A stretch of DNA of 64,000 bases from Bhargavaea sp. CC-171006 (GTDB lineage Bacteria > Bacillota > Bacilli > Bacillales_A > Planococcaceae). Each line of letters starts with the position of its first letter. Position 1 is the stretch's first letter. Both the position numbers and the translations under genes were made by a program. The notes under the pieces are model-generated. The model saw only the letters and a list, made by a program, of their open reading frames with translations. It made no database searches and was not told where the DNA came from. Of this stretch, positions 16,278-53,490 are shown one piece after another. The stretch spans positions 62,001-126,000 of the forward strand of contig NZ_QUZH01000003.1 of assembly GCF_009761675.1 (NCBI RefSeq). Reading direction: 5' to 3'.

Positions 16278-16439
16278 TTTGTGATAACGGCCACTGATAC
16301 GGAATATGGGCGGTGCGTTTGGAGTACGTGCCCAGCAGTTGGAGTAACGCCGGTACATTTGGAGTAAAGGGCCCCGCGTTTGGAGTAACTCCGGCCCATT
16401 TGGAGCAAGCGCCCCGCGTTTGGAATATCGGCGAAACAA
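16278..16439. repeat. Intergenic phased repeat array A, 20-bp period, core TTTGGAGTA
   Basis: Eight units begin at 16278, 16298, 16318, 16338, 16358, 16379, 16399 and 16419, giving steps of 20 bp with one step of 21. The core TTTGGAGTA is exact or nearly exact in the middle five units and degenerates at both ends (TTTGTGATA, TACGGAATA, TTTGGAGCA, TTTGGAATA). The other 11 bases of each unit vary freely and are GC-rich. The array fills most of the 430-bp gap between the divergent LLM and EamA genes. It has the same architecture, with a different core, as the arrays at 39653, 40894, 43531, 50098 and 53395. Confidence 0.9.
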
Positions 16440-16509
16440 TAATCTATACACCCGGCCCGGTCATGATTAAAATGACATAGTTGAATTCATGCAGGAAGGT
16501 TGAGCGGTT

Positions 16510-17394
16510 TTGCTGAAATCATATGCCTGGCTGACTTTTTGTGTACTGGTATGGGGAAGTAACTTCGTCTTCGGCAAAATGCTGGTACAGGACTTTTCCC
16601 CTGCCGCACTGACGATGCTCAGATTATTGTTCATCATTCTTTTTCTTGTCGTAATCTCCTTGCCTCGGAAGCGATTGCCTCGTTTGTCCGCGCATGACTT
16701 CCTGGTGGTCGTGATTCTCGGAATCATCGGCGTATTCATCAATCAGTGGTCCTTCTTCGAAGGGCTTCAAACTGCCGATCCTACCACTTCCGCGCTGATC
16801 CTGGCCACCGCTCCCGTGCTGACCGGATTTCTGGCTGCTGTCTTTCTGAAAGAAAGATTAACGCTCCGAATGATTGCCGGCTCATGCATCGCCATATTGG
16901 GCATCTTCTTTGTAGTGGCCCAGGGGAATATGTCGTCAATCCGGATTGACCCTGGCCTTTACTGGATCGTCATCACGATGGTGACGTTCGCCATCATGGT
17001 GATCGTTACCCGGCTCCTTTCCAACAGGGTCGATCCGCTGACGCTCACCCTTTATTCGAATATCGTCGGATGGGCGGTGTCGGTTCCATTTGTCTTCATA
17101 TTGGATCGCCCGCTCAAGGTCAGCACGGAATGGTCCCATTGGATGCTGCTGATTGTGACAGCGGTTGTCGTCCACGGCGCGGCCAATCTCATCTGGAATC
17201 AGCAGATCCGGTACGTGGATGCCTCAAAAGCATCGATTTTATCCAATCTGGAGCCGTTTGTGGCAATGGTCATGGGCCTCATCCTTTTGGGCAATCCCAT
17301 CACCGGCTACCAGGTCCTCGGCTCCCTGTTCATCATCGGGGGTGTCCTTTTGTCGACGTATCAGTGGAGAGTGCGACTGAAAAGCAAAAAGTGA
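16510..17394 (+). CDS. EamA/DMT-family transporter
   Basis: This 294-residue protein has ten predicted transmembrane helices in two EamA repeats (about 5-135 and 150-285). LTFCVLVWGSNFVFGK at the start and FLEPFVAMVMGLILLG-type sequence (here LSNLEPFVAMVMGLILL) near the end are typical of drug/metabolite exporters. The start is TTG at 16510, 10 bases after AGGAAGG. It is monocistronic, with a strong hairpin after the stop. Substrate unknown. Confidence 0.9.
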   Translation: MLKSYAWLTFCVLVWGSNFVFGKMLVQDFSPAALTMLRLLFIILFLVVISLPRKRLPRLSAHDFLVVVILGIIGVFINQWSFFEGLQTADPTTSALILATAPVLTGFLAAVFLKERLTLRMIAGSCIAILGIFFVVAQGNMSSIRIDPGLYWIVITMVTFAIMVIVTRLLSNRVDPLTLTLYSNIVGWAVSVPFVFILDRPLKVSTEWSHWMLLIVTAVVVHGAANLIWNQQIRYVDASKASILSNLEPFVAMVMGLILLGNPITGYQVLGSLFIIGGVLLSTYQWRVRLKSKK

Positions 17395-17419
17395 CGGCGC
17401 GTCACCGTCCACAAGAAAC

Positions 17420-17450
17420 GCCCGGCCTGGGAAACCCGGCCGGGCACTTT
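17420..17450. terminator. Terminator between convergent EamA and cupin genes
   Basis: GCCCGGCC / GGCCGGGC stem followed by ACTTTT, 6 bases before the stop of the minus-strand cupin gene. Confidence 0.7.
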
Positions 17451-17455
17451 TCTGT

Positions 17456-17773
17456 CTAACCGATCTTCGTCAAGGTTCCGAACAATGTCGTCCGGTTGTC
17501 CCCGTTGTTCTCAAAACCGATCATTTCTTTCTCGTCACAGAACAGGACGTCCCCTTCGGTGGCCATCACTTCCTCCCCGTCTACGGTGAATGTGCCGCTC
17601 CCTTCGATCACGACCAGATACAGTTCCTTTCCCGGATGGCTGTGGGCTTTCATCACCTGGCCTGGAGAAAAGTTCAGTGTGAATGCCGTGCTGTGCCCGT
17701 TTTTCATGAAATCGACTTTCGTAAACCGGTTGTCGTCATACTGCTGAAATGCCTTGAGCGCCTGATGGTCCAT
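17456..17773 (-). CDS. Small cupin-domain protein
   Basis: This 105-residue single-domain cupin has motif 1 as MKAHSHPGKELYLVVIEGSG (two histidines and a glutamate for a metal) and the second part GDVLFCDEKEMIGFEN, where the usual histidine is replaced. Such proteins range from small dioxygenases to sensors. The ATG two codons inside the open frame is chosen because AAGGAGG lies 8 bases upstream, and the outer TTG would be too close. Function unknown. Confidence 0.8.
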   Translation of the reverse strand: MDHQALKAFQQYDDNRFTKVDFMKNGHSTAFTLNFSPGQVMKAHSHPGKELYLVVIEGSGTFTVDGEEVMATEGDVLFCDEKEMIGFENNGDNRTTLFGTLTKIG

Positions 17774-17902
17774 GTGCAAGCCTCCTTCAAAGTGTTGGTA
17801 TTTGTACTATACCGTTGTCGGAAAGATCGAAAACCTGATGACCTTGTATATAATGGAGCAAGGGGAATGTATAGGGGGGCCACGGATAGAAGGGGGCATT
17901 TC

Positions 17903-18208
17903 ATGATGGCGGGCTTTGAAGTGTTTATTTTCATCGCATTAGGTGCAACACTCCTAATGGTGATCGCGTCGATCGTTCTTCAAAAATCAATGCCGGAGAA
18001 GAAAAAACAATATCTGAGATTTGGTTTTCTGGGTCTGCTGATCCTGAGCTTAGGAATTTTTATTTTTAGTTTCTATATCGGAGGTTGGCAGGGGATCGGT
18101 TATGGCTTTATGGCCATCTCGATTCTGGTCGGCACTTTATTGGGTGGACTGATTAACGTGGTTACAGATTTCATGAGACGCAGCAAATTGATTAATAAAC
18201 AAGAATAA
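17903..18208 (+). CDS. YesK-like small membrane protein
   Basis: This 101-residue protein has three hydrophobic segments: EVFIFIALGATLLMVIASIV, LGLLILSLGIFIFSFYIGG and FMAISILVGTLLGGLINVV. The stretch FSFYIGGWQGIGYGF resembles YesK-type proteins of Bacillus; family assignment is tentative. It ends with a basic tail. The start is the ATG at 17903 (or 17906) behind AAGGGGG. It stands alone and nothing indicates function. Confidence 0.65.
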   Translation: MMAGFEVFIFIALGATLLMVIASIVLQKSMPEKKKQYLRFGFLGLLILSLGIFIFSFYIGGWQGIGYGFMAISILVGTLLGGLINVVTDFMRRSKLINKQE

Positions 18209-18256
18209 ACCTCCAAAACCATTATTGGTTTGAAGGCACTGCAAAGGGACCCTCTT

Positions 18257-18667
18257 TCAAAATATCCAGGGTTCCTTTTTGAATGCCGCAAGTTGCCTGA
18301 CGGCCTGGCGGATCGCTTCCCCGCCAGGCGGCAGGCCGACCGTTCCGCGGGAGCGTTGCACAGATCGGTCATCATAACGGACCGTCACCTCATATGTCCT
18401 GCCCTCCAGAACCGGCGAACCTAAATCCGTTTTCCACTCACTGATCGTGAATTCGGTACTGAGGGAATCGAGGAAGGACGCCGTTTTTTCGGGATCGACG
18501 TTGTACTCATCCTTTATGTGGCGCATGCCGCGTTCGTTTTCCCCTTTAGTCGAGAGGACTTCATGGACAATAAGGCCGTCCCTGGTGATCCTGACGTCGT
18601 GGACGCGTTCCTGATTTGGCAGGAGCGGGCCGCTTTCGGTGGTTTCAATACGGATTTCGGTGATCAC
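18257..18667 (-). CDS. Hypothetical protein of 136 residues
   Basis: I do not recognise a family. The protein is mixed alpha/beta and charged, with MITEIRIETTESGPLLPNQE at the start, no signal peptide and no membrane segment. The GTG at 18667 is chosen because AGGAGG lies 7 bases upstream. The longer open frame overlaps the CPBP gene antisense-free but lacks a ribosome site. It starts 20 bases after the CPBP gene stop on the same strand, so it is probably co-transcribed with it. Confidence 0.7.
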   Translation of the reverse strand: MITEIRIETTESGPLLPNQERVHDVRITRDGLIVHEVLSTKGENERGMRHIKDEYNVDPEKTASFLDSLSTEFTISEWKTDLGSPVLEGRTYEVTVRYDDRSVQRSRGTVGLPPGGEAIRQAVRQLAAFKKEPWIF

Positions 18668-18687
18668 GGACAGGCCTCCTCTTTTTC

Positions 18688-19473
18688 TCAAACTGCTGAC
18701 TTTCTTTTTATGATGTTCAGGTTGTTCCATCCTTTTCCGTAAGCCATCGCCATCAGGCCCAGCACCAGCGCATAAAACAGGAACTTGGACAGTTCCTCCT
18801 GTTCGGCTGTGCCGGATTGCAGACCGTCGGACAGGTAGAAGACATTCAGCATTCCATGCAGGATGGCGGCTGGAATGACTGACCGGCCGGCTTCTCTGAC
18901 GTAGGTGAGCGTCATGGAGACCAAGAACAGCAGACCGATGTAAGTTGTGATTCCCGTCCACAAATCCCCATACCCTTTATAAAAAACGGCAATCGGCAAG
19001 TGCCACAGCGACCAGGCTGCAGCTATGATGACAGCCGTCCTGAACAGGGGATGGTTTTTCCGCAGATGGTGATGAAAGTTCCCGCGCCAAACCACTTCTT
19101 CCAATAATGCGGACAAGGTCGCAACGGTCAGGCCGATCACGAACAACAGACCCAGTTCCTTCTCCTGCTCAAACAGGAACTGTATGCCATGATAGCTGAG
19201 ATAGACGTGAAAAGTGATTCCCAACAAGACCGGAAATAATATAGAAAACAACATGCTCTTCAAGTTCGGACGGAACAGTCCCAGTGTGGATCTGACCGGG
19301 AGTTTACAATAAACAGCCTGATATGCTAAAACGACGATCAGCGGGACTGCCATCACCGCTCCCAGAAACGCGCGTCCGTCCTCCAAATTGACAAGGACCG
19401 CATGGACAAGGAAAGTGACCAAGAAGATGAAGGCTATAGACGTTCCAACAATATTCTTCCGGTTTTGCTTCAC
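18688..19473 (-). CDS. CPBP-family intramembrane metalloprotease
   Basis: This 261-residue membrane protein has about seven hydrophobic segments and the three CPBP (CAAX protease/bacteriocin-processing) motifs: EEVVWRGNF (EExxxR type), SLWHLPIAVF and ILHGMLNVF. These supply the glutamates and histidines of the active site in the membrane. The start is GTG with GGGAG upstream. Bacillus members act in peptide processing or self-immunity; the substrate here is unknown. Confidence 0.88.
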   Translation of the reverse strand: MKQNRKNIVGTSIAFIFLVTFLVHAVLVNLEDGRAFLGAVMAVPLIVVLAYQAVYCKLPVRSTLGLFRPNLKSMLFSILFPVLLGITFHVYLSYHGIQFLFEQEKELGLLFVIGLTVATLSALLEEVVWRGNFHHHLRKNHPLFRTAVIIAAAWSLWHLPIAVFYKGYGDLWTGITTYIGLLFLVSMTLTYVREAGRSVIPAAILHGMLNVFYLSDGLQSGTAEQEELSKFLFYALVLGLMAMAYGKGWNNLNIIKRKSAV

Positions 19474-19560
19474 CCACCCACTCCCTCTCAGCTACTCTTC
19501 AGCAATCTTATCCAACACAGTATTCATTACGGAGTTTGCCTCCTCGTTTACATTCTTTCC

Positions 19561-20520
19561 TTAAGTGGTGCCTGCCTCCAACGCTCCCATTGCCCTCTTT
19601 TTCATTTCTTCCACATCCACCGTCTGCCGTTTTCCGGATCCCTCAAGCACACAGCGTTGGACGGGCAGATTCAGGATGCGGTTCATGAACCCCAGTTCGT
19701 CCGGATAATCCACTATCAGCTCTCCTGTTTCAGGATAGCCGTGCTCCTTCTGCCAGTCGATCAGCCCTCTGCAGAAGTTGGGGTTATTGGGGATCTCAAT
19801 CTGGTCAAATAGATTTTCCGGCAGCAGATGTCTCGCAATGTGATAAAGGCCGTGGGCTTCCGTGCACAGGCTTTTGTAGAGTTTCGGCCTGTCCACTCTC
19901 CTGGAAGTCTTACAGACATTGCCCAATGCTTCTGTAGCCCGATCTGCATCCCGGTCCGCAATCGCCAACAGATATTCCATGATCGCTTTTTCCCACAGGC
20001 CTTTTTTCTGGCCTAGCAGTTTCGTCCCTTCCGTATAAGCCGCATCCAGCCATTCATCATTCCGGTACCATAAAGCCATCAATAAATTACTTGTTTTCAC
20101 AAAAGGCGGATAGCCGTTCTTGCCCAGACCCAGTTCTTCCGGTAAACAGGCTTCAACCGTCTCCACGTGATTGGAGGCCATGGCGTCCAAGACCTTCCAA
20201 AAGTTCCCGCTGTGGTCATATCCTCCAGAGCTGAATTTTGAGAGTTCATGCTTGCTGTTGTGGTAAATCGCGTTATGGAGCATTTCGTAGTCCTGTTTCT
20301 GAAAGGCCAGATATAACCCGGTCAGATATGGATTTTGCAAAAGATATTTATAGCCGAATGGATCGATTTCTTTCCCGGCTTCCGTTGCTTTTTCGTGAAG
20401 TCTCTTATAGGTTTCTTTCTGTTCTTGCAGATACTCCTCTAAATCCTCGTAGGTATACAGGTATTCTGTCACTTCCGGGTCACGGTATAGCTTCAGGTAT
20501 TCTTTAGCGATCTTCTCCAA
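19561..20520 (-). CDS. Hypothetical helical protein of 319 residues
   Basis: The protein is cytoplasmic, charged and predicted mostly alpha-helical. It has repeated helical pairs such as KTSNLLMALWYRNDEWLDAA and AHGLYHIARHLLPENLF, which recall the Imm49-type immunity fold, but I cannot confirm this. The TTG at 20520 (LEKIAKEYLKLY) is chosen because GGGGGAG lies 4-5 bases upstream. It then overlaps the GNAT stop by 17 bases, which suggests coupled translation. No polymorphic toxin is adjacent, so an immunity role is not supported by context. Confidence 0.7.
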   Translation of the reverse strand: MEKIAKEYLKLYRDPEVTEYLYTYEDLEEYLQEQKETYKRLHEKATEAGKEIDPFGYKYLLQNPYLTGLYLAFQKQDYEMLHNAIYHNSKHELSKFSSGGYDHSGNFWKVLDAMASNHVETVEACLPEELGLGKNGYPPFVKTSNLLMALWYRNDEWLDAAYTEGTKLLGQKKGLWEKAIMEYLLAIADRDADRATEALGNVCKTSRRVDRPKLYKSLCTEAHGLYHIARHLLPENLFDQIEIPNNPNFCRGLIDWQKEHGYPETGELIVDYPDELGFMNRILNLPVQRCVLEGSGKRQTVDVEEMKKRAMGALEAGTT

Positions 20521-21103
20521 TGGTCTCCCCCTTTCCGCTTGAGCCAGTCTTCTCCCATAGCGCAAGATCTTCTTTCAGGATGGAATACATGTAAAGGTCG
20601 TCGAATTTGCCCCGCCCGTATTCATAATGGCGCAGGAGCCCTTCCCTCAGGAATCCGTTTTTCTCGACCAGCCGGAGGGAAGGTTCGTTTTTAGGTTCGA
20701 TCAGCGCCTCGATCCGCTCCAGCCTCAGTTGGTCGAATCCATACCGGACAACCGCCTGCAGCGCCTCGCTTGCAATCCCTTTCCCCCAATGCTCCCGGCT
20801 GAGTTCATAACCGATTTCAGCCCGGAAATGCTTGGGCTCCCGGTTATGAAAGCCGCAGCTTCCGATCATTTTTCCGGTCTCCATGAGCGTGATGCCCCAC
20901 CGGATGCCGCTGCCTTCTTCGACAAGGGATCGGTACCAATGGATTTCATCCAGTACGTCCTCCGTCGTTTGGAAAGGTTCCATGCCGGTATATTCCATCA
21001 CTTCAGGATCCGACAGGTAGCGCAGCATATCGTCTGCATCAGCGGGAGTGGCTGCCCTCAAGTGCAGCCTTTCAGTCGTAATAACAGGAAACGGTGCTTC
21101 CAT
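20504..21103 (-). CDS. GNAT-family N-acetyltransferase (RimJ/RimL type)
   Basis: This 199-residue protein has ITTERLHLRAATPADADDML at the start, IGYELSREHWGKGIASEAL with the acetyl-CoA pyrophosphate loop (Q/RxxGxG/A type, here HWGKGIA), and NEPSLRLVEKNGFLREGLLR, a standard RimJ/RimL C-terminal motif. It acetylates protein N-termini or small amines; the target is unknown. It overlaps the hypothetical gene downstream. Confidence 0.9.
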   Translation of the reverse strand: MEAPFPVITTERLHLRAATPADADDMLRYLSDPEVMEYTGMEPFQTTEDVLDEIHWYRSLVEEGSGIRWGITLMETGKMIGSCGFHNREPKHFRAEIGYELSREHWGKGIASEALQAVVRYGFDQLRLERIEALIEPKNEPSLRLVEKNGFLREGLLRHYEYGRGKFDDLYMYSILKEDLALWEKTGSSGKGETIGEDR

Positions 21104-21125
21104 TTTTGTTACCTCCCAATAAAAT

Positions 21126-21152
21126 GGCCGGTCCCATTGATCCGGGCCGGCC
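21126..21152 (-). terminator. Probable terminator of the VOC gene
   Basis: GGCCGG-CCC pairs with GGGACCGGCC (one bulge) 6 bases past the stop, followed on the minus strand by ATTTTATT. Confidence 0.5.
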
Positions 21153-21157
21153 TTCTG

Positions 21158-21529
21158 TTATCTGTGCTGGTCCACCAGAATCGGATTACCGTCCGGGTCT
21201 TCGATCACGAAGTGGGCCGGTCCTTCAGATGATGGGTCAGCCTCCGTGATAAACTGCATCCCCTTTGCCTTGAGCTCTTCCTGAAGTTCCCTGACGTCCC
21301 TGAATGGATTCACTTCTTCGGCACTACTGTTCCATCCCGGGTTGAACGTCAGCATGTTCTTCTCGAACATCCCCTGGAAAAGTCCAATCACGCAGTCTTC
21401 ATTTTTCAGAATCAGCCAGCCGCTTTCCTCGTCTCCGCCGAGCGCGGAAAAGCCGAGCTTCTCATAGAATTCCTTGGATGCCTGAAGATCCTTTACGGTC
21501 AGGCTAAGCGAAAATGCCCCGATTCCCAT
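21158..21529 (-). CDS. VOC-family protein (glyoxalase/bleomycin resistance fold)
   Basis: This 123-residue protein has MGIGAFSLSLTVKDLQASKE at the start and GPAHFVIEDPDGNPILVDQH at the end, the two halves of a vicinal oxygen chelate fold. The ATG at 21529 is chosen because GGGGGAGG lies 8 bases upstream; the open frame begins 16 codons earlier. It follows the serine hydrolase gene by about 30 bases. Substrate unknown. Confidence 0.85.
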   Translation of the reverse strand: MGIGAFSLSLTVKDLQASKEFYEKLGFSALGGDEESGWLILKNEDCVIGLFQGMFEKNMLTFNPGWNSSAEEVNPFRDVRELQEELKAKGMQFITEADPSSEGPAHFVIEDPDGNPILVDQHR

Positions 21530-21560
21530 TGGCAAGTCCTCCCCCGGTTTCATGGTTGGA

Positions 21561-22868
21561 TTAATTTCCGTGTACACTCTTCAAATAACGTTTCCTTGTT
21601 CCGTAAGGATCCGTATGGGTCAAGCTTTGCTTTTGCAGATCGATGACCAACTCATCGTTCAAATATCTTCCCTTGAGCCTGATCTGCCGGCTGTCTGCAA
21701 TGACGGGTATGACTTCACAGTTGTAGACCACTCCGTACATCTTCAGCAGGGCGACAAATACCCGGTCCCCTTCCGAAAAGATGCTCAGCTGCCCCTGATC
21801 CGAGTGATACATTCCGATAATGGCCGCAATCAGCCGCTCATCCGGAACGATGGTAGCCGGCGAAGGGAGTGCACAATCTCTCTGTTCAAATACAACAGAG
21901 GCAATGTCTTTTGCGATCCGGTCTACCGGGGTCAAGCCGAAATTGCTCAGAACGATAACTGCCAACTCTTCTTCCGGGTAACGAAGGTAATACGACGCGA
22001 AGCCGTTTACGTCACCGAAGTGTTCCCAGCGGGTGCGCCTGCCCCCATCTTTTTCTTCGTCCGTAAAGAACCAGTGGTATCCGCACATATCGTTGTGCCG
22101 GGTGAACATCTTCACGAACGGTTCCCGACCGAAAATGCTTTCCCCATCGAGGGCCTGGTCCCAGACGAGCAGGTCTTCTGCAGTCGAATATATACTGTAC
22201 GCACCAGTCGCCACTGTCATGTCGATCCACTCTGCACGCCTGATGTCCCGGTCGAGCGAGTAGCCCTGGGCATACTGGCTAATGACCGTCCTACCGCCAT
22301 CACTGCCGGTGTTTTTCATGCCGAGCGGCTTAAATACCTGTTCTTGCATATAATCTCCGTAGCTGAGACCGGTCACTTTTTCGATGATGGCAGCCAGGAT
22401 CGTATAACCGGAGTTCGAATATCCGGCCTGGCTGCCGGGCCCGAATTCCGGAGGCAGTTCTCTAATGGCTTCCATCAACGTTTGCATCGTGGCCGGCAGT
22501 CTCATCATCCGTGTCCAATAGTCCGGATGTGAAGCAAAATCGGCCACGCCGCTCATATGGGAAAGCAGCTGATGGATGGTGATTTTGTCGCCTGCCGGAA
22601 AATCACTGAAGAAACGGCTGATCGGGTCTTCCCTCCGAAGAACGCCCTTCTCCTCCAGATGAAGGATCGCCATCGCAGTAAACGCTTTTGACAACGATCC
22701 GATTTTGAACCTGGTGTTGGAGGAGTTAGGGACACCAAACCCATGATCCGCCATGCCATAACCTTTGCAAAAGACGGTCTTTCCCTGATGCCGGACCGCA
22801 ATGGCGCCGCTAAAATAGCCGTGCGCATCCAGCGAATCTACATACTTCCTGATTAATTCTGTTTCCAT
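21561..22868 (-). CDS. Serine hydrolase of the class C beta-lactamase/DD-peptidase family
   Basis: This 435-residue protein has the catalytic SLSK (SxxK, near residue 60), the YSN of GYSNSGYTIL (YxN motif) and a C-terminal lipocalin-like beta domain. No signal peptide is visible, suggesting a cytoplasmic esterase or peptidase rather than a secreted lactamase. The ATG at 22868 has GGAGG five bases upstream. It precedes the VOC gene on the same strand. Confidence 0.87.
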   Translation of the reverse strand: METELIRKYVDSLDAHGYFSGAIAVRHQGKTVFCKGYGMADHGFGVPNSSNTRFKIGSLSKAFTAMAILHLEEKGVLRREDPISRFFSDFPAGDKITIHQLLSHMSGVADFASHPDYWTRMMRLPATMQTLMEAIRELPPEFGPGSQAGYSNSGYTILAAIIEKVTGLSYGDYMQEQVFKPLGMKNTGSDGGRTVISQYAQGYSLDRDIRRAEWIDMTVATGAYSIYSTAEDLLVWDQALDGESIFGREPFVKMFTRHNDMCGYHWFFTDEEKDGGRRTRWEHFGDVNGFASYYLRYPEEELAVIVLSNFGLTPVDRIAKDIASVVFEQRDCALPSPATIVPDERLIAAIIGMYHSDQGQLSIFSEGDRVFVALLKMYGVVYNCEVIPVIADSRQIRLKGRYLNDELVIDLQKQSLTHTDPYGTRKRYLKSVHGN

Positions 22869-22929
22869 AAAATCCTCCGGGTTAGTTCCAGAACCTTCAT
22901 TCAAAGTCCCGTTAGGTAAAGTAAAAATC

Positions 22930-23277
22930 TTATAGTCGGCTTAAATGGGTGTCCTTAAAACGGGTCGGATACTTGAGTCCATAGCCGAGCATCCGGTCCA
23001 TCCCGATATGGGCCAGCCAGATGAGGCCGATTGCCAGAATGCCCCCGCTGTTAAAGAGGAGCCCTGCGATGATCAAGATGATCGGGACAGAAGTGGTGTG
23101 AAAGTAGTTATACATCTTGGCGCCTGTCTTCAGATCGACCATGTACCCGAGCGCGGCAAGATCCGGTGCGAAAAGCAGGATGAAAAACATCGGCCAGCTC
23201 AATGAATGGGAAGCATACAGGTACAGGGCAAACAGCAGCATGGCCAAGCCTTCGACATGCAGAAGAATCCTCACCAT
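22930..23277 (-). CDS. DUF4260-family membrane protein
   Basis: This 115-residue protein has three or four hydrophobic segments and the C-terminal signature WLAHIGMDRMLGYGLKYPT, which I associate with DUF4260 proteins. Its start overlaps the Nudix gene stop by 7 bases, so the two are translationally coupled. Function unknown. Confidence 0.8.
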   Translation of the reverse strand: MVRILLHVEGLAMLLFALYLYASHSLSWPMFFILLFAPDLAALGYMVDLKTGAKMYNYFHTTSVPIILIIAGLLFNSGGILAIGLIWLAHIGMDRMLGYGLKYPTRFKDTHLSRL

Positions 23278-23813: not shown

Positions 23814-23843
23814 GTCATCGCCCCTTAGTCCCCTGTTTATGGA

Positions 23844-24542: not shown

Positions 24543-24628
24543 CCGGTTCCCCCTCTTTTCTGATAGGTAATATCATTTTCAGCCCAAGTCACTGTACGAT
24601 TTCTTATCGTTTATTTAGAGACATCACA

Positions 24629-24991
24629 TTATCCGCAATGTTCATCGATTGCCCGGATTGCCAATTCCAGCGATTTCAGCCTTCGCTCAAGAAGAGTCCG
24701 CTGGGGGCTGCCGGTCTTTGAATTAGCATATGCCTTCTCGACGGATGGAATCAGACCGCGGAGCACATCTCGGGCTTTTGATAATGCCTCTTTCCCGTAT
24801 GGATAAGGCTGCCGGTTCCAAGTGCTCTCCAAGACAGCCAGCCCGATCCTCATCGCATGGAGCCGCTTCTCGATCAGGGTCGTATGGGCGCCTTTTTCCT
24901 TCATCTGCGCCAACCCCTTTTCCATCTTGCGGATGGTTGATTGGAAAGACTGGATGGACTCCGTTCTGACGGTTTCCGTAACGCTATCCAA
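24629..24991 (-). CDS. Small helical protein with an internal duplication
   Basis: This 120-residue all-helical protein has two similar halves of about 50 residues. LIEKRLHAMRIGLAVLE in the first aligns with LLERRLKSLELAIRAID in the second, each preceded by a helix and a GAHTT/GSPQR turn. The start is TTG at 24991 behind GAGGGGGTG. No family recognised, and it is not clearly linked to its neighbours. Confidence 0.65.
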   Translation of the reverse strand: MDSVTETVRTESIQSFQSTIRKMEKGLAQMKEKGAHTTLIEKRLHAMRIGLAVLESTWNRQPYPYGKEALSKARDVLRGLIPSVEKAYANSKTGSPQRTLLERRLKSLELAIRAIDEHCG

Positions 24992-39626: not shown

Positions 39627-39652
39627 GCTGTTTGTGGGGCGGGGACGTTGCG

Positions 39653-39757
39653 TCACTTTCGGGGAGTGTTTCGTCACTTTCAGGGGGCGTTGCGTCACTT
39701 TCGCGCCCTCTTTCATCACTTTCGGAACGCGATTCATCACTTTCACTTTGGCAACCG
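39653..39757. repeat. Intergenic phased repeat array B1, 21-bp period, core TCACTTTC
   Basis: Five units begin at exactly 39653, 39674, 39695, 39716 and 39737. The extended core is TTNRTCACTTTC; the remaining nine or so bases vary. The array lies between the convergent Nudix and NERD genes. The TGA stop of the NERD gene (minus strand) falls inside the last core, and TGATG there overlaps an ATG of an open heptad-repeat frame. Array B2 with the same core lies on the other side of the NERD gene. Confidence 0.92.
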
Positions 39758-40705
39758 TCTCAGCCGCCCCTTATACCTCCATATATAGGTCGTCGTCTTG
39801 CTCTGGCCGACCTTCTTTAGCGGATATTTTCTGAGCAGATTAGCCGCAGCTGTCTGCGACATGCCAAACAGATGTTGGACTTGCTCGTTCGTAATCGAAG
39901 AGCTCCGCAGCAGGAACCACCTCTCCAAAGTATGTGTGTAGGGATCCGTCGTCTCCCATCCACACCGGCATACCCATCGCCGCTTTGTGACTCTCTCCAA
40001 CTTTCTCCAACACTTCGGGCAGACGGGCTTCCAAAAAAGTTCAGTGGCGGCTAAATCGACTTTTTCGATCAAGGGAAATGGCATATAAGGTTCATTCCGA
40101 TTGCGAATATACTCCGCCAGCTCCCTGATCTCGTTTTGAGTCCGTCCCCCGCCGGCGTGATAATCACCTAAAATATGATTCCTTATTTGCCGGATTCTAA
40201 ATATCTTGCCGCCACGGGGAGGCTTTTCAATCATCGCGCTTCCGGTCATCACCACTGCCCCGTCAACGGCGCATGCGATATCGTGATCATAAAACCATTG
40301 TCGCAGGTTGGCCATCTCTTCCTGCAGCTGGAGCATGGGGCATTCATAGCTTGCGACAAGCCTCCCCTCGGCATCCAACTTATCCAAGCGGGATGGATCG
40401 GATTCGAATCTGAGCCGATCCGCCATGTTCTTTGCTTCATAAATCATCGCGTGAAAAGGTGTCAGCACAAGTACATCAATCTGTGCGTAATGCCTTGGTG
40501 CCAGCCTTAGATTGACGTCCCATAAAACCTCGACCGGCAGGTTCAAGTTGAACAGATATTGAAGCACCTTCCGCTCCCCCGCCATACCTGCCCTCAGCGA
40601 ATACAGTCTCTTCTCAATAACACTTCTTGACCGTTGTTCCAGTCCCGGCATATTGAGCAGCATATCCAACGCGGCCTCATGCAGTAATTGAACCGATTCC
40701 CCCAA
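39743..40705 (-). CDS. NERD-domain protein (nuclease-related) with C-terminal zinc-ribbon-like and winged-helix-like parts
   Basis: This 320-residue protein has a NERD domain (about 45-150): AGMAGERKVLQYL, then QIDVLVLTPFHAMIYEAKN with the D...ExK nuclease motif. A cysteine pair cluster (CPKCW...WVCRCGW, about 230-255) suggests a zinc ribbon. NEQVQHLFGMSQTAAANLLRKYPL near the end looks like a DNA-binding helix-turn-helix. I place the start at TTG 40705 because GGAGG lies 7 bases upstream; the open frame reaches 40744. Repeat arrays with the same core lie just before and just after the gene. Confidence 0.82.
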   Translation of the reverse strand: MGESVQLLHEAALDMLLNMPGLEQRSRSVIEKRLYSLRAGMAGERKVLQYLFNLNLPVEVLWDVNLRLAPRHYAQIDVLVLTPFHAMIYEAKNMADRLRFESDPSRLDKLDAEGRLVASYECPMLQLQEEMANLRQWFYDHDIACAVDGAVVMTGSAMIEKPPRGGKIFRIRQIRNHILGDYHAGGGRTQNEIRELAEYIRNRNEPYMPFPLIEKVDLAATELFWKPVCPKCWRKLERVTKRRWVCRCGWETTDPYTHTLERWFLLRSSSITNEQVQHLFGMSQTAAANLLRKYPLKKVGQSKTTTYIWRYKGRLRRLPK

Positions 40706-40893
40706 ATCCCAACCTCCGCCCCCACGTTTCCCCCACCATAGCACGCATTACGTTAATAGAGAATACCGCTGGAATGCCGGTAATCCGAGCACTTTATGAT
40801 TTTGACATCGAAAACTGTTCCATATTCGAATTATGACCCACTATATCGCCTCAAAATTGAAAGATGGCTTTTTCGAAAATAAATGGTGATTCG

Positions 40894-40998
40894 TCACTTT
40901 CAAGGGCTGATTCATCACTTTCGGAGGTCCTTTCATCACTTTCACGGTCCCTTTCATCACTTTCGCACCCTCTTTCGTCACTTTCGCATTCCCCCAAA
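40894..40998. repeat. Intergenic phased repeat array B2, 21-bp period, core TCACTTTC
   Basis: Five units begin at exactly 40894, 40915, 40936, 40957 and 40978, with the same extended core TTYRTCACTTTC and orientation as B1 but different filler. It lies 3' of dagK and its terminator and upstream of the NERD gene. Read on the minus strand it is open and would encode basic heptads (AKVTKEG, AKVMKGT, VKVMKGP), which I regard as a by-product of the 21-bp period. Confidence 0.92.
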
Positions 40999-43525: not shown

Positions 43526-43610
43526 GAATCCATATGCTGTCGTGAGTTTACATGTTGGTTGCCCGAGTCTGCATGTTCCGTCCCTGAGATTGCACATTCA
43601 CCACCACGCA
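43526..43610. repeat. Intergenic phased repeat array C, about 21-bp period, core (A/G)CATGTT
   Basis: Four units have cores at 43531 (CATATGCTG), 43551 (CATGTTGGT), 43572 (CATGTTCCG) and 43593 (CACATTCAC), with steps of 20, 21 and 21. The middle two share GAGTYTRCATGTT. The array lies 3' of gatB beyond its terminator and upstream of sodC. It is the weakest of the six arrays. The rest of the 302-bp gap (43355-43525) holds the sodC leader and nothing else I recognise. Confidence 0.65.
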
Positions 43611-45087: not shown

Positions 45088-46553
45088 TGTTCCAATCCCT
45101 CCCGAATTTCCGGCATCCGCTTGTGGAAGTCGGTCGACTGCTCGAACGCGTGAGCGACACGGTAGACGGTCGACTCGTCAAAGTGGCGGCCGATGATCTG
45201 GAGGCCGAGCGGCAGGCCATTATCGAATCCGCAAGGGACCGAAATCGCCGGTACGCCGGCAAGGTTGACCGGAATCGTCAGGATGTCGTTCGCGTACATC
45301 GTGAGCGGATCGTCGATCTGTTCACCGAGCTTGAACGCAGGGGTCGGCGAAGTCGGGCCGATGACGACGTCGTACTTCTCGAATGCGTTCGTGAAGTCGT
45401 CGCGCACGAGTGTGCGGACCTTCTGTGCCTTTTTGTAGTAGGCGTCGTAGAAGCCGGAGCTGAGGGCGAATGTGCCGAGCATGATCCGGGTTTTGACTTC
45501 GTCGCCGAAGCCTTCGGAACGGGTCTGCTTGTAGAGGTCTTCCAGGTTCTCGATGCCTTCCGCGCGGTATCCGTAGCGGATGCCGTCAAAACGTGCCAGG
45601 TTCGAGGATGCTTCGGAAGAGCTCAGCAGGTAGTAGGCAGGAAGCGCGTACTTCGTATGAGGCAGCGACACTTCCTCCACTTCCGCACCAAGCGATTCCA
45701 GAACTTTGATGGCGTCTTTGACCGCGTTGCGGGACGCTTCCCCGACGCCTTCACCGAGGTACTCTGAAGCGATGCCGATCTTGAGGCCTTTGATGTCGCC
45801 AGTCAGTGCCGATGCAAAGTCCGGCACGTCGATATCGAACGACGTGGAGTCAAACGGGTCATGGCCGGAGATCGCGGACAGCAGGAATGCGTTGTCCTCG
45901 ACCGTGCGTGTGATCGGGCCGATCTGGTCAAGAGATGAAGCGAACGCGACCAGGCCGTAGCGCGATACGCGGCCGTATGTCGGCTTCATGCCGACGACGC
46001 CGCAGTAGGCCGCCGGCTGGCGGATGGAACCGCCTGTGTCGGTGCCGAGCGTGAACGGCACTTCGCCTGCTGCAACCGCAGCGGCGGAGCCGCCGGACGA
46101 GCCGCCCGGGACATAGTCAAGATTCCAAGGGTTCGCCGTCTTTTTGTAATACGAGGTCTCGGTAGAGCCGCCCATTGCGAATTCGTCCATGTTCACCTTG
46201 CCGACTGTGATCAGGCCTGCATCATCAAGCTTTTTCGCAGCCGTCGCATGGTAGATCGGGTCAAAACCGCCGAGCATGCGGCTCGCGCACGTCGTCTCGA
46301 GGCCTTCTGTCACGATGTTGTCTTTCACGCCGACCGGCAGGCCGTGAAGCGGGCCGCGCTGGTCCGCCGGCGTGTTGTCGAGCTCGGCGGCACGCGCCTT
46401 TGCCTGCTCTTCATTGAGCGCAAGGAAGGCCTTGACGTCGCCGTCGACTTTGCCGATGCGGCGGAACGCCTCGTCCGTCAGTTCGACGGCGGACACTTCC
46501 TTGCTATGTAGGAGCTGCTGGAGCTCTTTAGCGGAATGATTGAATAGCGTCAT
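45084..46553 (-). CDS. gatA: Asp-tRNA(Asn)/Glu-tRNA(Gln) amidotransferase subunit A
   Basis: This 489-residue amidase has the Ser-cisSer-Lys triad: lysine in [10 protein letters not shown] and the serines in [16 protein letters not shown], followed by [18 protein letters not shown]. It produces ammonia from glutamine and passes it to GatB. It starts 25 bases after the gatC stop. Confidence 0.96.
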
Positions 46554-46577
46554 CTTTCTGTTTTCCTCCTCTGTCCG

Positions 46578-46868
46578 TCAGCCCAGGATGGACGGCACTT
46601 TGACCATGCCATCTTCATGCTCGGGTACGTTTTTCAGCATCAGGTCGCGGTCGAGCCCTTTGGACGGCTTGTCCTCCCGGAGCACATTCACGAGCGGTAC
46701 CGGGTGTGTCGTCGGTTCGACGCCCGATGTGTCCACTTCGTTCAACTGCTCGGCAAACTCGATGATCGATGCAAGTTTTTCGGTGTAATGTTCCGCTTCT
46801 TCCTCGGTGATGGCGAGCCGTGCGAGATTCGCGACGTGCTTCACCTGATCCTTTGTGATCACTGCCAT
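46578..46868 (-). CDS. gatC: Asp-tRNA(Asn)/Glu-tRNA(Gln) amidotransferase subunit C
   Basis: This 96-residue protein starts [20 protein letters not shown], the GatC signature, and ends [12 protein letters not shown]. It wraps around GatA and stabilises the complex. The ATG at 46868 is preceded by GGAGGAG; the open frame extends five codons upstream. It begins about 70 bases after the camS stop with no terminator between. Confidence 0.95.
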
Positions 46869-46937
46869 AACTGTCTCCTCCAATCGTGCAAAATATCCTC
46901 TGTCTCTGCCTCCGCTATCATATCACGAAAGCCATCA

Positions 46938-48029
46938 TCAGTTATGATAAATATGGGTGTACGGCTCGGCTTCCCCGCGCTTCTTCACGATGAGCGCTTC
47001 CGGTCCTTTCGTCGAGGTGATGCTCACCTCCACATGAATATCCGGGAAGTGATCCACGAGCAGCCCGGTCAGGTATTGGGTGAAGCCGATGATTTCCGCA
47101 TTGCCGTAGAACTCGATCGGAACGTCGATGTCGAGCGAGGCAATTTGTCCATCCTTATAGAAGCCTGTGCCGATGACGTTGACGAAGGATGAAAAGTACT
47201 TCTCGACATCCTGCTTGAGATTCCGGAAGCCCGTGTCGACGTCCCGGTAGCGATCCTCGCTGGAGCTTGTCGGGAACAGCACATATTCCTCATTGACAGA
47301 GTCCCATCCCGACAGCACGTCCTTGCCCTTTTCCGCCACCCCTGTGGCAAAATAGTTCCCCGGAACGATATCGTCTTTCGGGCTCTGCCTGAACAGGCCG
47401 ATGATAATCGGCACTTCCTGCAAACCTTCGATGCCCCGCATGCGCTTGACGATCTGTGCAGCGGCTTTTTTGCCGTTTTCCTCGACCTGTGCGGCAGAAA
47501 GCTTGTCGCCGGTAACGGTATTCACCGTATTCAGCGCGATTGCGAGCGAGACTCCCTCAAGGCGGATCTTGTCCTCCGCCGTGCGTTTCAGGTAGTTCTG
47601 CTCAAGGATATGGGCGATGTAACGCGGGGATTCATTGCCCGCCGGGTTCAGGCCTTCAGGATTATTTTCTTCATCCTTGCCGCCCAGCCAGGAAAGGATG
47701 GTTTCCTGGTCGAGGTACTGGCCTTCCTGGTAATAGTATTCGTCAGTCGGGAAGTGCTGCCGTGACAGGCGCATCAGCCCGCCCTCGACTTCCGCGATAT
47801 TGTACTGCGAGTTCAGCATGCTCACGACAAGGCCGTATGATGCGCTTTTCTTATAAGGCAGGAGCATCCGGTAGTATTCTTCCTCCAGCTGGTGGGTCGG
47901 AATGATGACCCGCGTCTCCTGCTCCTCTTTTGCCTGGTCCGTTGCCTCTTCCGGCTGGTCGCTCTTCGGCATGCAGCCGGAAAGCAGCAGCGCGGCGATG
48001 GCGGCCGCGGTGATTGTCTTGATCTTCAC
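46938..48029 (-). CDS. camS: CamS-family sex-pheromone-like lipoprotein
   Basis: This 363-residue lipoprotein has the signal MKIKTITAAAIAALLLSGC with lipobox LLSGC and a C-terminal CamS domain (MRGIEGLQEVPIIIGLFRQ, FFSSFVNVIGTG-type segments). In enterococci the signal peptide of the homologue yields the pheromone cAM373; in Bacillus (YerH) function is unknown. It lies 20 bases after ligA in the conserved pcrB-pcrA-ligA-camS order. Confidence 0.93.
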   Translation of the reverse strand: MKIKTITAAAIAALLLSGCMPKSDQPEEATDQAKEEQETRVIIPTHQLEEEYYRMLLPYKKSASYGLVVSMLNSQYNIAEVEGGLMRLSRQHFPTDEYYYQEGQYLDQETILSWLGGKDEENNPEGLNPAGNESPRYIAHILEQNYLKRTAEDKIRLEGVSLAIALNTVNTVTGDKLSAAQVEENGKKAAAQIVKRMRGIEGLQEVPIIIGLFRQSPKDDIVPGNYFATGVAEKGKDVLSGWDSVNEEYVLFPTSSSEDRYRDVDTGFRNLKQDVEKYFSSFVNVIGTGFYKDGQIASLDIDVPIEFYGNAEIIGFTQYLTGLLVDHFPDIHVEVSITSTKGPEALIVKKRGEAEPYTHIYHN

Positions 48030-48048
48030 TGGTGCAGATCCCCTTTGG

Positions 48049-50217
<2,169 letters not shown>

Positions 50218-50220
50218 CTC

Positions 50221-52473
50221 TTACGCCTTTTCGATCGGTGCGAATTTGGCGAGGAGGCGCTTGATGCCGACCGGTTCCGGGAAGGCGATGTCGAGCTCTT
50301 TGTCTTCCCCTTCTCCGCGGACGCTGACGACCATGCCTTCGCCCCACTTTTTGTGCTTCGCTTTGTCGCCGGCTTGCCAGCCGACGGAGGCACCGTTTTT
50401 GCGTGCGGACGGGCGCCGGACGGCTGGGCGTGCCGCAGGGCGGCCGCCGAACCCGCCGCCGGAGATCGGCGTGCGGCTGTAGTCCGGCTGTGAGCCGCCG
50501 GCGCCGACAGTTTCGATGATGTCCTGGGAGATTTCAGTGATGAAGCGGGACGGGCTGTTATAGCTTGTCCGTCCGTAGAGCGTGCGATACTGCGCGGACG
50601 TGAGGAACAGCTTCTCTTCCGCCCGGGTGATGCCGACATAGGCAAGCCGCCGCTCTTCTTCCATCTCATCATCGTCGCCTATCGAGCGGGAGTGCGGGAA
50701 GACGTTTTCCTCCATCCCGATGATGAAGACGACCGGGAATTCGAGCCCCTTCGCCGAGTGCATCGTCATGAGGACGATCTGCTCGTTCGACGCGTTTTCT
50801 TCCTTATCTAGGGAGTCGATGTCCGCGATCAGCGCGAGGTCGGTCAGGAATGCGACCAGTGACTTGTCGCCTTCGTCTTCATCGGCGCGCTTCTCGAAGG
50901 ACTCCGTGACGGACAGGAATTCGTTGATGTTCTCAAGGCGGCTTTCCGACTCGATCGTCTTCTCGTTGTTCAGCATCGCGCGGTAGCCGGACTTCTCGAG
51001 CACTTCCTCGACGAGTTCGGTGACCGAAAGGAATTCCTGCATCTGCGTGAATCCTGCAATCAGGTCGCGGAACCCGGCCGCCTGGTTGATGGCGCGTGGC
51101 TGGAGGCCCGGGATAAAGTCGACTTCCTTGAGCGCATCAAAGATCGACAGGTCGTTCTGGATTGCATAGGCCGCAATCTTATCGAATGTCGTCGCCCCGA
51201 TGCTGCGCTTCGGCTCATTGATGATCCGCGCAAGCGACAGGTCGTCGTCGTTGTTCGCGATCAGCCGGAGATAGGCAAGCAGGTCCTTGATCTCCTTGCG
51301 GTCGTAGAACTTCGTGCCTCCGACGATCGTGTAATCCAAGTTCGACTTGACAAGGTATTCCTCGATCATCCGGGACTGGGCGTTTGTCCGGTAGAGGACG
51401 GCGAAGTCGGTAAGCTTGCGGTTCTCCTTTTCCTGCAGCTCGAGGATCTTCGAGACGACAAACTGGGACTCGTCCTTTTCATCGGACGCTTTGTAGACGT
51501 AGATGTGCTCCCCTTCGGCGTTTTCCGTCCGGAGGTTTTTGTCATAACGGCTCGAGTTGTTCTTGATGACGTCGTTGGCCGCCTTCAGGATCCGCTGTGT
51601 GGAACGATAGTTCTGCTCGAGCATGATGACTTTCGCGTCCGGATAGTCTTTCTCGAACGACAGGATGTTGCCGATGTCGGCCCCCCGCCATCTGTAGATC
51701 GACTGGTCAGAATCGCCGACGACGCACAGGTTCTTGAACTTGTCGGCAAGCATGCGGACCAGTTTGTACTGCGCGTGGTTCGTATCCTGATACTCGTCCA
51801 CGTGGATGTATTGGAACTTGTTCTGGTAGAACTCAAGCACTTCCGGCATCTGCTCGAACAATTTGATTGTGACCATGATCAGGTCATCGAAGTCGAGCGA
51901 CTGGTTTTTTCGGAGGCGCTTTTCATAAGCGGCATACACTTCGCCGGCCGTTTTCTCGAACGGGTTGAACTGATTCGCCTGTTCCTGGAACGACTTCGCG
52001 TCAATCAATTCGTTTTTCGCGTTTGAAATCGTCCCGAGAAGCGAGCGCGGCTCGTATTGTTTCGGGTCGAGGTTCTGCTCTTTCAGGATGTTCTTGATGA
52101 CGGTCAGCTGATCGGAGCCGTCGAGGATCGAGAAGTTCTTGGAGTAGCCGATCCGGTCAATTTCGCGGCGCAGGATCCGGACGCACATCGAGTGGAACGT
52201 CGAGACCCACATGCGCTCGCCCGTGCCAGGCCCGAGCAGGCCGTCGATCCGCTCGCGCATTTCGCGTGCGGCCTTGTTCGTGAATGTGATCGCGAGGATT
52301 TTCGAAGGATACACCTGTTTTTCGACGATCAGGTAGGCGATCCGGTGAGTCAGGACCCGCGTCTTGCCGGATCCCGCTCCGGCCATGATGAGAAGCGGCC
52401 CTTCGGTGGTGCGGACCGCCTTCGCCTGTTCCGGGTTCATGCCATTGAGGAGATTGTTTGAAATGGTTTCCAT
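50221..52473 (-). CDS. pcrA: ATP-dependent DNA helicase PcrA
   Basis: This 750-residue superfamily 1A helicase has Walker [15 protein letters not shown], motif [13 protein letters not shown], motif [17 protein letters not shown], motif IV-VI regions ([25 protein letters not shown]) and a C-terminal Tudor-like domain ([14 protein letters not shown]) that contacts RNA polymerase. It unwinds DNA 3' to 5' in repair and conflict resolution. The C-terminal linker is rich in G, R and P. It lies 68 bases after pcrB. Confidence 0.96.
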
Positions 52474-52541
52474 GGGTGGCTCCTTTCTGATGAAGCGTGC
52501 GAGCAGACGGGAGTTCGCCTCCAGTCTGCTCTATTTTTATA

Positions 52542-53240
52542 TCAAATAGTCTTTTCCGTTTCTTTCACTGCGCGGACGGTTTTCAAAGCCGCTTTCAGGT
52601 CTTCATAGATGATATTTCCGACGACGACCGTGTCTGCGTATCGCGCCATCTCGGCGGCCTGTTCCGCTCCGCGGATGCCGCCGCCATAGACGAGTCGGGT
52701 GTTGTTCAGCACTCGCGCCGTGCGGCTCACCGTCTCCGAGTCGCCATACGTGCCGCTGTACTCCAGGTATAAGACGGGCAGGCGGAAGAAATGCTCCGCA
52801 AGCCGCGCATAGGCGATGACGTCTTCAGTCTCAAGAGGCGCTTTTGCTCCGGTGAGCCTGGCCGCCTTGCAGTCAGGGTTCAGGATGACGTAACCCTCTG
52901 AGAGAATCTCGCTGAAGTCCATAAGGTCGCCGTACTCGCGGATCGCCGCGAACTGATGGCCCTTGACCCAAGAGGCGTCGTCGGTGTTCAGGACGCTCGG
53001 AATGAGGAATCCGTCAAAGCCCGGAGTGATCGCCTCTGCGTCTGATACCTCGAGGACGACCGGCACCGAATACCTGCGGATCCGCATGAGGAGCGCGAGC
53101 ACATTATCAAGTGTCACATTGTCGGTTCCGCCGACGATCAGGCCGTCCGTGCCCGACTCGCACACCCGCTCAAGTGCTTCGTCACTGATCTCCTTGGCCG
53201 GGTCCAGTTTAAAAACATGCCGCCATTCTAGAAACTCCAT
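52542..53240 (-). CDS. pcrB: Heptaprenylglyceryl phosphate synthase
   Basis: This 232-residue TIM-barrel prenyltransferase has FKLDPAKEISDEALERVCES at the start, GTDGLIVGGTDNVT, LYLEYSGTYGDSETV and YGGGIRGAEQAAEMA. It joins heptaprenyl diphosphate to glycerol-1-phosphate, as shown for B. subtilis PcrB. The ATG at 53240 has AGGTGG 9 bases upstream; a long in-frame extension to 53444 runs across array E and is not translated in my view. Confidence 0.94.
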   Translation of the reverse strand: MEFLEWRHVFKLDPAKEISDEALERVCESGTDGLIVGGTDNVTLDNVLALLMRIRRYSVPVVLEVSDAEAITPGFDGFLIPSVLNTDDASWVKGHQFAAIREYGDLMDFSEILSEGYVILNPDCKAARLTGAKAPLETEDVIAYARLAEHFFRLPVLYLEYSGTYGDSETVSRTARVLNNTRLVYGGGIRGAEQAAEMARYADTVVVGNIIYEDLKAALKTVRAVKETEKTI

Positions 53241-53394
53241 GATGCAGTACCACCTGTCTATAGTTTGCGTCCCCCCATTATAACAAAAAAGACTCCATCC
53301 GGCGGCTGTTTTGGGGTCGCCCGGAAAGGAGTGTTTCAGGAGAGGTATTCTTGTGGAGTGAGACGGGAGAAAAGCCCGTTGCAGACAGCGGGTG

Positions 53395-53490
53395 ACCGCG
53401 CATAGGTTTCTATGCGCGGTTTGCGACGTCCTATGCGCGCTCAACCCGTTTCTATGCGCGCTTGCGGGCTTTCTATGCGCGCTTTCCCCT
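53395..53490. repeat. Intergenic phased repeat array E, 21-bp period, core CTATGCGCG, with an inverted first unit
   Basis: Four direct units begin at exactly 53410, 53431, 53452 and 53473; the core is YCTATGCGCG(C/G). A fifth core is inverted at 53395-53405 (ACCGCGCATAG), so with the first direct core it makes a perfect 11-bp hairpin with loop GTTT (53395-53420). The array lies 3' of dsdA and its terminator, and upstream of pcrB. Confidence 0.9.

Follow-up and report, generated by a model that had tools for sequence, protein, structure and literature searches.

Plasmid iterons and ParR centromere repeats are direct repeats of 20-22 bp that are bound side by side by a dedicated protein, and in the REP/RAYT systems the repeat is a hairpin-forming palindrome and the protein an HUH/Y1 transposase. 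The NERD domain is known from larger multi-domain proteins, such as PglW, the MADS6 kinase and helicases. Closest to the present subject are the tandem repeats of Bacillus described by Subirana and Messeguer (PMC8161180); according to the accessible part of that paper they are non-coding, constant in size (20-21 or 52 nt) and variable in sequence, with several species-specific families per genome, each having a short conserved word, and B. subtilis belongs to the species in which they are very rare. Their function is called enigmatic there, and the authors speculate on a transcribed RNA or a spacing-dependent protein; transcription of 52-nt repeats has been reported in B. coagulans (PMC8161180, discussion, and PMC8625621, both as far as accessible). 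Here, we analyzed six intergenic arrays of 20-21-bp units in a 64,000-nucleotide stretch of Bhargavaea sp. CC-171006 (contig NZ_QUZH01000003.1, positions 62,001 to 126,000 of the forward strand; the whole stretch is called the window), two of which enclose a gene for a NERD-domain protein. Core and period of such arrays followed this protein family within Bhargavaea, and its genes also lay near arrays in other Bacillales, so that the arrays are very probably the cognate DNA sites of a family of proteins composed of a NERD domain, a putative zinc ribbon and a winged-helix-like region. The features of the window are as follows.

39743..40744, minus strand: NERD-domain gene, 333 aa, between the two A arrays; PF08378 match at E 1.9e-09, above the cut-off; member of a 55-row alignment.
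40247..40588, minus strand: NERD domain (aa 53-166), PD-(D/E)xK fold; E57, D90, K105 and Q139 invariant, E103 at least 90% conserved.
39962..40021, minus strand: putative zinc ribbon, four invariant cysteines (aa 242, 245, 259, 261) in the alignment.
39782..39940, minus strand: C-terminal winged-helix-like region (aa 269-321), proposed core reader, from the secondary structure of a model and an identity contrast.
39647..39744, unstranded: left array A, core TTYRTCACTTTC on the plus and GAAAGTGAYGAA on the minus strand; five copies, period 21, directly 3' of the NERD gene.
40889..40985, unstranded: right array A, core and strand as in the left array A; five copies, period 21.
16318..16427, plus strand: array B, core TTTGGAGTA; six copies, period 20 (one 21).
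43539..43601, unstranded: array E, degenerate, core GAGNYTGCATGTTC-like; about 3 copies, period 21, 3' of gatB.
50118..50210, unstranded: array K, core GCCATGYGGCAA; 3 good and 1-2 poor copies, period 20, between pcrA and ligA.
53396..53484, unstranded: array D, core CTATGCGCG; 1 inverted and 4 direct copies, period 21, 3' of a PALP-family gene.

The six arrays had been proposed in an initial annotation of the window, and they proved real. The gap of each array was compared with 2000 dinucleotide-preserving shuffles at lags 15 to 45. Five arrays beat 2000/2000 shuffles of their own gap at any lag, and the weakest, at 43531, was matched by 3/2000 shuffles at any lag and by 0/2000 at lags 20/21. 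All six are intergenic at the positions proposed, and five are indeed found at the 3' end of minus-strand genes; the remaining one, at 16278, occupies the divergent gap between a luciferase-like gene and an EamA gene. Core spacings were 20,20,21,20,20 in the array at 16318-16419, 21,21,21 in the array at 39653 (its fifth copy, at 39737, straddles the end of the tested stretch), 20,20,20 in that at 50138 and 21,21,21 in that at 53410, and the cores of the array at 40894, which lies upstream of the NERD gene and 3' of a DagK-like gene, keep a 21-bp register. No common function was found among the array-adjoining genes of the window (pcrA, gatB, NUDIX, DagK, luciferase-like, EamA, PALP).

Compared with the accessible description in PMC8161180, the Bhargavaea arrays have the same unit of 20-21 nt, constant within a family, the same plurality of families per genome and the same non-coding nature. 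The initial annotation knew of no named family of this behavior and would have taken a match to a described one as counting against it; the former statement does not hold, and such a match does exist in part, namely to the 20-21-nt Bacillus arrays of that paper. The arrays themselves were thus already described, and the pairing of NERD genes with them was not found in print: the main text of PMC8161180 is without 'nuclease', 'NERD' and 'Bhargavaea', the first two words have 0 occurrences in the accessible text of PMC6749651 and PMC8625621, and a literature search, thin on subscription journals and bioRxiv, found no link between NERD proteins and these repeats. A partner family is proposed here, with the rule that the core goes with the winged helix and the period with the protein clade.

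Arrays were detected with our own motif-free autocorrelation scan and genes with a codon-based caller that overlooks atypical genes, NERD genes included. Large array-holding gaps often contained such an overlooked gene, which in the window is the 333-aa NERD gene. Its product scored 38.4 bits against PF08378 (curated cut-off 22.1). Array-linked NERD proteins are mostly 310-450 aa long, retain the PD-(D/E)xK active-site residues in the alignment, and carry the putative zinc ribbon and the predicted winged helix, a name that is our own reading of the model's secondary structure for aa 269-321. Foldseek gave no match at E <=0.001 among solved structures and two among viral models, the first being a named nuclease-related domain protein; a second look by VIA returned PD-(D/E)xK nucleases and supports the fold for residues 51-197 only. 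Searched against the sequences of solved structures, protein A1 gave weak zinc-ribbon matches only (best E 0.0047). A Pfam scan of 10 proteins found NERD and no Y1 domain, and with defense models (PADLOC, NCBIfam) one of 10 proteins matched PglW, weakly (E 4e-5), and two of six matched MADS6, far under the cut-off. The array-linked proteins belong to the PF08378 family, yet they are smaller than the known NERD proteins, and the few that match the PglW or MADS6 models do so weakly. A phage or plasmid origin was also considered and rejected, as no relative of the window protein was found in phage and plasmid collections and core A was not found in viral contigs.

The likeness to REP/BIME and their RAYT proteins (TnpA-REP; PMC2817692, PMC8266576) lies in a dedicated gene flanked by its own extragenic repeat, with many dispersed copies at gene ends, and in sequence classes that track the protein. 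The array-linked protein, however, is of the PD-(D/E)xK/winged-helix kind and not an HUH transposase, and the arrays, unlike REP, consist of tandem, direct, non-palindromic cores at 20/21 bp, with about ten gene-array pairs per genome. Cores such as GAAAGTGAYGAA, TTTGGAGTAA and GAATGACGARA are non-palindromic, those of types K and D are partly palindromic, and many cores appear to share a 'GAR' start. In contrast to iterons and ParR repeats, the arrays are chromosomal and numerous and have many different cores, and the window protein has no plasmid or phage relative among those collections.

The association of gene and array was then counted in Bhargavaea. A PF08378 search of eight genomes gave 8-13 NERD places in each and 73 in total, of which 66 were examined. 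A periodic place (lag 19-22) occurred within 1 kb of 47/58 NERD genes of 250-480 aa versus 72/434 control genes of similar length (Fisher p 9e-23); it occurred beside all three NERD fragments (56-131 aa) and beside none of the five long NERD genes (545-662 aa). Downstream arrays began at the stop codon (median offset -0.5 bp, n=42), and upstream arrays lay at a median of 133 bp from the gene (n=25). Twenty-one NERD genes had arrays on both flanks; when fragments were included, the two-flank arrays of 23 genes were inverted to each other in 12 cases, of the same sense in 7 and unclear in 4. The window genome has a second gene of this kind on contig C1, between two type G arrays, and in G005 a NERD-type gene adjoins a type D array. 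From the NUDIX-dagK gap the gene and both type A arrays are missing in B. cecembensis DSE10 and B. ginsengi (L051, L055), where the gap is about 100 bp long, as if the module had been gained or lost whole. Further cores that are absent from the window, for example AATATGG, AGGTAGGGACTC and GAATCGAACGATTAG, each stand by their own NERD gene (G004/G006 loci L248, L251, L263, L267, L268, L275, L276 and L279). Some subgroups of ordinary length are mostly without an adjacent array (G005_C5_52058, G002_C2_49802, G001_C18_38050 and the group of G007_C25_145079); these may have lost their arrays or may do something else.

In a maximum-likelihood tree of 57 proteins, clades corresponded to array cores, and the period followed the protein as well. 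All seven period-20 arrays by NERD genes belonged to one clade of 8 proteins (support 100/100), within which cores differ; the other 38 NERD-adjacent arrays with a usable core had period 21, and one further, doubtful low-complexity place had 22. Dispersed arrays kept the period of their core, as seen in type K (70/73 intervals at 20) and in the type B array of the window. When proteins of the period-20 clade with core TTTGGAGTAA were compared with those with core TTGCCACATGG, the NERD domains were 82-88% identical and the winged helices only 34-43%, whereas the winged helices of same-core pairs of the clade were 66-88% identical; one of the six contrasted proteins (G001_C28_594) was assigned to the TTGCCACATGG group by the tree alone, its array side lying at a contig edge. 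Within the period-20 clade the core changes where the winged helix changes and the period stays.

Core abundance varied with the presence of the gene. Three genomes carry an open A-type gene, and they had 47, 34 and 39 core A pairs versus 24, 17, 8, 0 and 0 in the five without (p 0.018). For core G, counted as a prediction test after the tree, the three genomes with that core by their G-type gene had 4, 34 and 23 pairs versus 0, 0, 0, 0 and 2 in the others (p 0.013); among the zeros is G004, in which a member of this clade stands by a different core. In the window genome the two type A arrays have the open gene between them and array B has its cognate gene elsewhere (G000:C19:340845), adjoining a long array with the same core; the type D gene is a 131-aa fragment, and no cognate NERD gene was recognized there for types K and E. 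Relatives of array E in L053-L055 are better kept, with GAACGTGCARACTC or similar.

The association extends beyond Bhargavaea. All 17 NERD genes from outside the genus (one a fragment) were near arrays, 11 found at the first program setting, 2 at looser settings and 4 by eye. Eight of these loci, hand-picked from the top of the profile listing to span several genera of other Planococcaceae, had arrays at 6 by program and at 2 by eye; six loci, the best match per named Bacillales genome, had them at 5 by program and at 1 by eye. For the three NERD genes in L075, L076 and L086 (the fragment) the first setting found no array; with looser settings, arrays were found upstream of the gene in L075 (at 300-650 bp) and in L086 (at about 190 bp), and in L076 units of about 20-21 bp are seen by eye within a longer repeat. 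In Psychrobacillus vulpis, Sutcliffiella deserti and a Bacillales metagenome-assembled genome, the core of dispersed arrays, which were known before the NERD loci were fetched, was the core by the NERD gene, with 46, 58 and 36 shared 9-mers versus 0-6 in cross-genome controls and a mean of 1.9-3.8 in random windows (0.19, maximum 4, for the metagenome-assembled genome with its own array excluded). A 55-row profile found relatives in 137/151 Planococcaceae genomes and in 43/49 genomes reached through named Bacillales loci; B. subtilis, which we assume to be part of a 14-genome control set, was not among the control genomes matching NERD. Among 49 of 56 loci usable for the comparison, genomes whose sample of about 20 kb contained a phased array had a median of 6 NERD genes versus 3 in those without (p 0.002; p 0.02 for lags 20-21/40-43 alone), and none of the 12 genomes with 0-1 NERD genes had a phased array in its sample. 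In Cytobacillus kochii (L319, 526-1322) a NERD gene adjoins a 51-52-bp array, a hint that the 52-nt class also belongs to this system. The 52-bp units of L066, L077 and L105 seem, by eye, to combine a core with its inverse at a distance of about 25 bp.

Arrays of this kind recurred throughout the window genome. In 415 kb made up of the window and 19 further stretches (after removal of a contig of Ns), 32 intergenic periodic places were found, 30 of them at lag 20, 21 or 40-42, a density biased upwards by the choice of some of the 20 stretches for their TCACTTTC pairs; Markov-simulated versions of 6 of the 20 sequences gave none. The core word TCACTTTC formed 55 exact pairs, 19-23 bp apart, at 14 places in the 3.27-Mb genome (reversed control, 0). 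The cores of different loci do differ, as had been claimed, but they are not private to a locus. Fifty-six loci of other Bacillales (1.12 Mb) had 32 intergenic periodic places, at lags 20-21 (14), 40-43 (7), 51-52 (6) and others (5), and 400 kb of other Bacillota had none at 20-21 or 40-42. Several array families of different core occur per genome, and they are species- or genus-specific; strict core A was present in 4/250 Planococcaceae genomes, every one Bhargavaea. The closest named relatives of the window genome are Bhargavaea species, with 86-92% identity in a CamS-like protein.

Several other arrangements were seen. Repeats at 41-42 bp occur in L113 (14713-14880), L047 (1510-1656) and L082 (20033-20848), the first two being an alternation of two different half-units. 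Head-to-head arrays, with forward and then inverted cores, occur in L040 (18716-18914), L041 (9095-9400) and the window (53396-53430) and could fold into long broken hairpins. Closely related type D arrays, each by the same terminator-like sequence, lie at the ends of three contigs (L033 start, L035 end, L043 end), so that the arrays probably break assemblies.

The constancy of the period was confirmed over many units: 85/87 intervals of type A (TCACTTTC) and 56/57 of type C were on a 21-bp register, and the type K intervals (TTGCMRYAWGG) counted above were on a 20-bp one. The suggestion that all cores of an array face the same side of the helix is exact for 21 bp, and 20 bp is slightly less than two turns. 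Unit number is labile. The pcrA-ligA gap holds about 4-5 units in the window genome, about 11 in B. cecembensis DSE10, about 21 in B. beijingensis and about 8 in strain T14, and another orthologous array has 5 units in one species versus 1 in the other; presence at a given gap also varies, 12/15 arrays of G005 being undetected in G007. In this same gap, that of a probable operon, about 20 or more units were noted in B. beijingensis and B. massiliensis (L052 7455-7882; L054 7347-7889). Within arrays of the window genome, identical spacers exceeded chance (2/67 pairs versus 0.01 expected). Spacer sharing between arrays of one core at different loci, in contrast, showed no clear excess in four genomes, the observed count being reached by 50 to 1000 of 1000 shuffles, and spacer exchange between distant arrays was rejected on this ground. 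Growth by local copying, as had been supposed, is partly supported by the unit numbers and the identical spacers; the further idea that each array copies whatever core founded its locus is not supported, since the cores are genome-wide families tied to a protein. The two arrays flanking a NERD gene in G003 have one spacer in common and a second that is similar, and the order of the two agrees. The orthologous type A arrays at L139 15444 and L130 6610, from two species, share two spacers, one of them altered, in opposite order, which points to recombination within the array.

Several observations weigh against the reading of the arrays as sites of the NERD proteins. Eleven of the 58 NERD genes of ordinary length had no array (contig edges truncate two of these), among the 47 positives G003_C9_1073692 is doubtful (lag 22, low complexity), 7/73 NERD places (five of G004, two of G006) are outside the tree, and four of the 17 non-Bhargavaea cases rest on the eye. 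Twenty stretches from 18 other Planococcaceae genera were without an array at lags 20-22 or 40-43, though most of these genera have NERD genes. In favor of the reading, cores diverged less between species than spacers did: pooled over all ortholog alignments, differences affected 408/3324 core sites and 535/1561 spacer sites, a contrast that takes in misregistered units; in five ortholog pairs judged by eye as one-to-one they affected 11/288 and 31/190, respectively, and one of these pairs, type E of G007/G002, diverged nearly equally in core (6/68) and spacer (7/43). The agreement of tree and cores (Mantel test, Spearman 0.29, 0/2000 permutations) is partly expected from inheritance of the whole locus; the correlation was alike for the N-terminal (0.30) and the C-terminal part (0.29), and the Mantel result alone therefore does not single out the winged helix. 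The period of dispersed arrays, the winged-helix contrast and the rise of core abundance with the gene go beyond whole-locus inheritance. Lastly, some array families have no recognized cognate gene in the same genome (A in G002/G005, C in G005, F in G007, K in G000/G003), and such orphans need recent gene loss, another binder, or arrays independent of NERD. In B. beijingensis the A-type gene is reduced to a C-terminal remnant (aa 179-333), and among the six genomes with any core A pairs it ranks lowest; a thin type A family by a broken gene fits recent gene loss as the explanation.

On the reading that we favor, each protein family would read its own core of about 9-12 bp through the winged helix, and the rest of the protein would set the distance from core to core, 20 bp in one clade and 21 bp in the others. 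Protomers would then be arranged along the array at intervals of about two helical turns, the array serving as their platform. The gene would lie within or beside an array of its own core, with more such arrays scattered between genes, mostly at gene 3' ends; by analogy, gene and dispersed arrays would make up a repeat-plus-dedicated-protein system that works like REP/RAYT from other parts. We infer that the protein would bind the arrays directly, that its nuclease site would act on DNA, and that the nuclease would drive gain, loss and spread of units. A bolder version, possible but doubtful in our estimate, would make the protein a molecular ruler by which its own tandem repeat is written, lengthened and spread: the winged helix would anchor on a core, the NERD nuclease would nick or cut alongside at a fixed reach of about two helical turns, and slipped or recombinational repair would duplicate one unit of exactly that reach. 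The difference between periods 20 and 21 would then be one of reach, and a two-headed form with inverted cores may underlie the 52-bp class.

Other explanations account for part of these data. A protein-array complex might serve the host as an insulator, roadblock or supercoiling sink behind genes, for which the BIMEs of enterobacteria offer a comparison. The gap types, approximate owing to the imperfect gene caller, favor this: 35 of 92 arrays lay in convergent gaps (of 92 such gaps), 53 in tandem gaps (of 428) and 4 in divergent gaps (of 132), and of the 53 tandem-gap arrays 40 were nearer the upstream stop, 12 nearer the downstream start and 1 tied. Such a role is not exclusive of the reading as protein sites; as the explanation in its own right we consider it rather unlikely, since presence at the same gap differs so greatly between G005 and G007, one array sits inside the pcrA-ligA gap of a probable operon, and the nuclease site and the many cores per genome go unexplained. 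Alternatively, the arrays might be made and kept by something else, with NERD genes being homing-type nucleases that settle in them. NERD genes do often lie between arrays of one core, the joint absence of gene and both arrays from one gap in B. cecembensis DSE10 and B. ginsengi suits such insertion, and this account too ties winged helix to core and copes with gene-less array families. It is nevertheless improbable, because core abundance tracks gene presence, the period belongs to the protein clade, and 12/23 two-flank pairs are inverted, whereas simply splitting one array would leave both parts in the same sense.

A transcribed satellite or small RNA, or a nucleoid model with a general protein, as raised in the accessible text of PMC8161180, draws on the reported transcription of the 52-nt repeats in B. 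coagulans (PMC8161180, PMC8625621). We hold it very unlikely: an Rfam scan of the window gave no match at gathering score and found no RNA family on L033, L035 and L043, so that a known RNA family was rejected; spacing is near-invariant; and the data point to a dedicated protein per core instead of a general one. Moreover, of six tandem-gap arrays of the TCACTTTC type, four had the orientation of the upstream gene and two the opposite one, and the occurrence of both orientations speaks, in small numbers, against a strand-specific RNA. Neutral slippage of functionless tandem DNA would explain varying unit numbers and recent duplicates. It is hardly credible, having been disfavored already by the spacing counts; unit length stays fixed while spacers diverge, core and spacer divergence are unequal, and period classes and the NERD link would be left without a cause. 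Scarcely worth entertaining is a guide-RNA array of the TIGR-Tas or CRISPR kind. TIGR arrays do have a conserved repeat with a variable 9-nt spacer, which the units resemble, but the Nop domain (PF01798) was found in none of the eight Bhargavaea genomes (4/14 controls match, all four archaeal), and the arrays are many, scattered and short, with differing cores; guide arrays were ruled out by the absent domain. Nor do the arrays code for amino-acid repeats, which is ruled out by their intergenic placement and by a period of 20 in one class, a period that excludes coding for the arrays having it. The preference of the initial annotation for protein recognition over coding or RNA is thereby supported, with the winged helix tracking the core and the clade tracking the period.

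Satellites of 20-21 bp, and perhaps those of 52 bp, are a bacterial class that had been described with neither a function nor a partner; pairing them with a named protein family that retains its nuclease site makes them a protein-DNA system open to testing. Winged helices and their DNA words form dozens of matched natural pairs in it, with the spacing as a second readable property, which would be useful for decoding DNA recognition.

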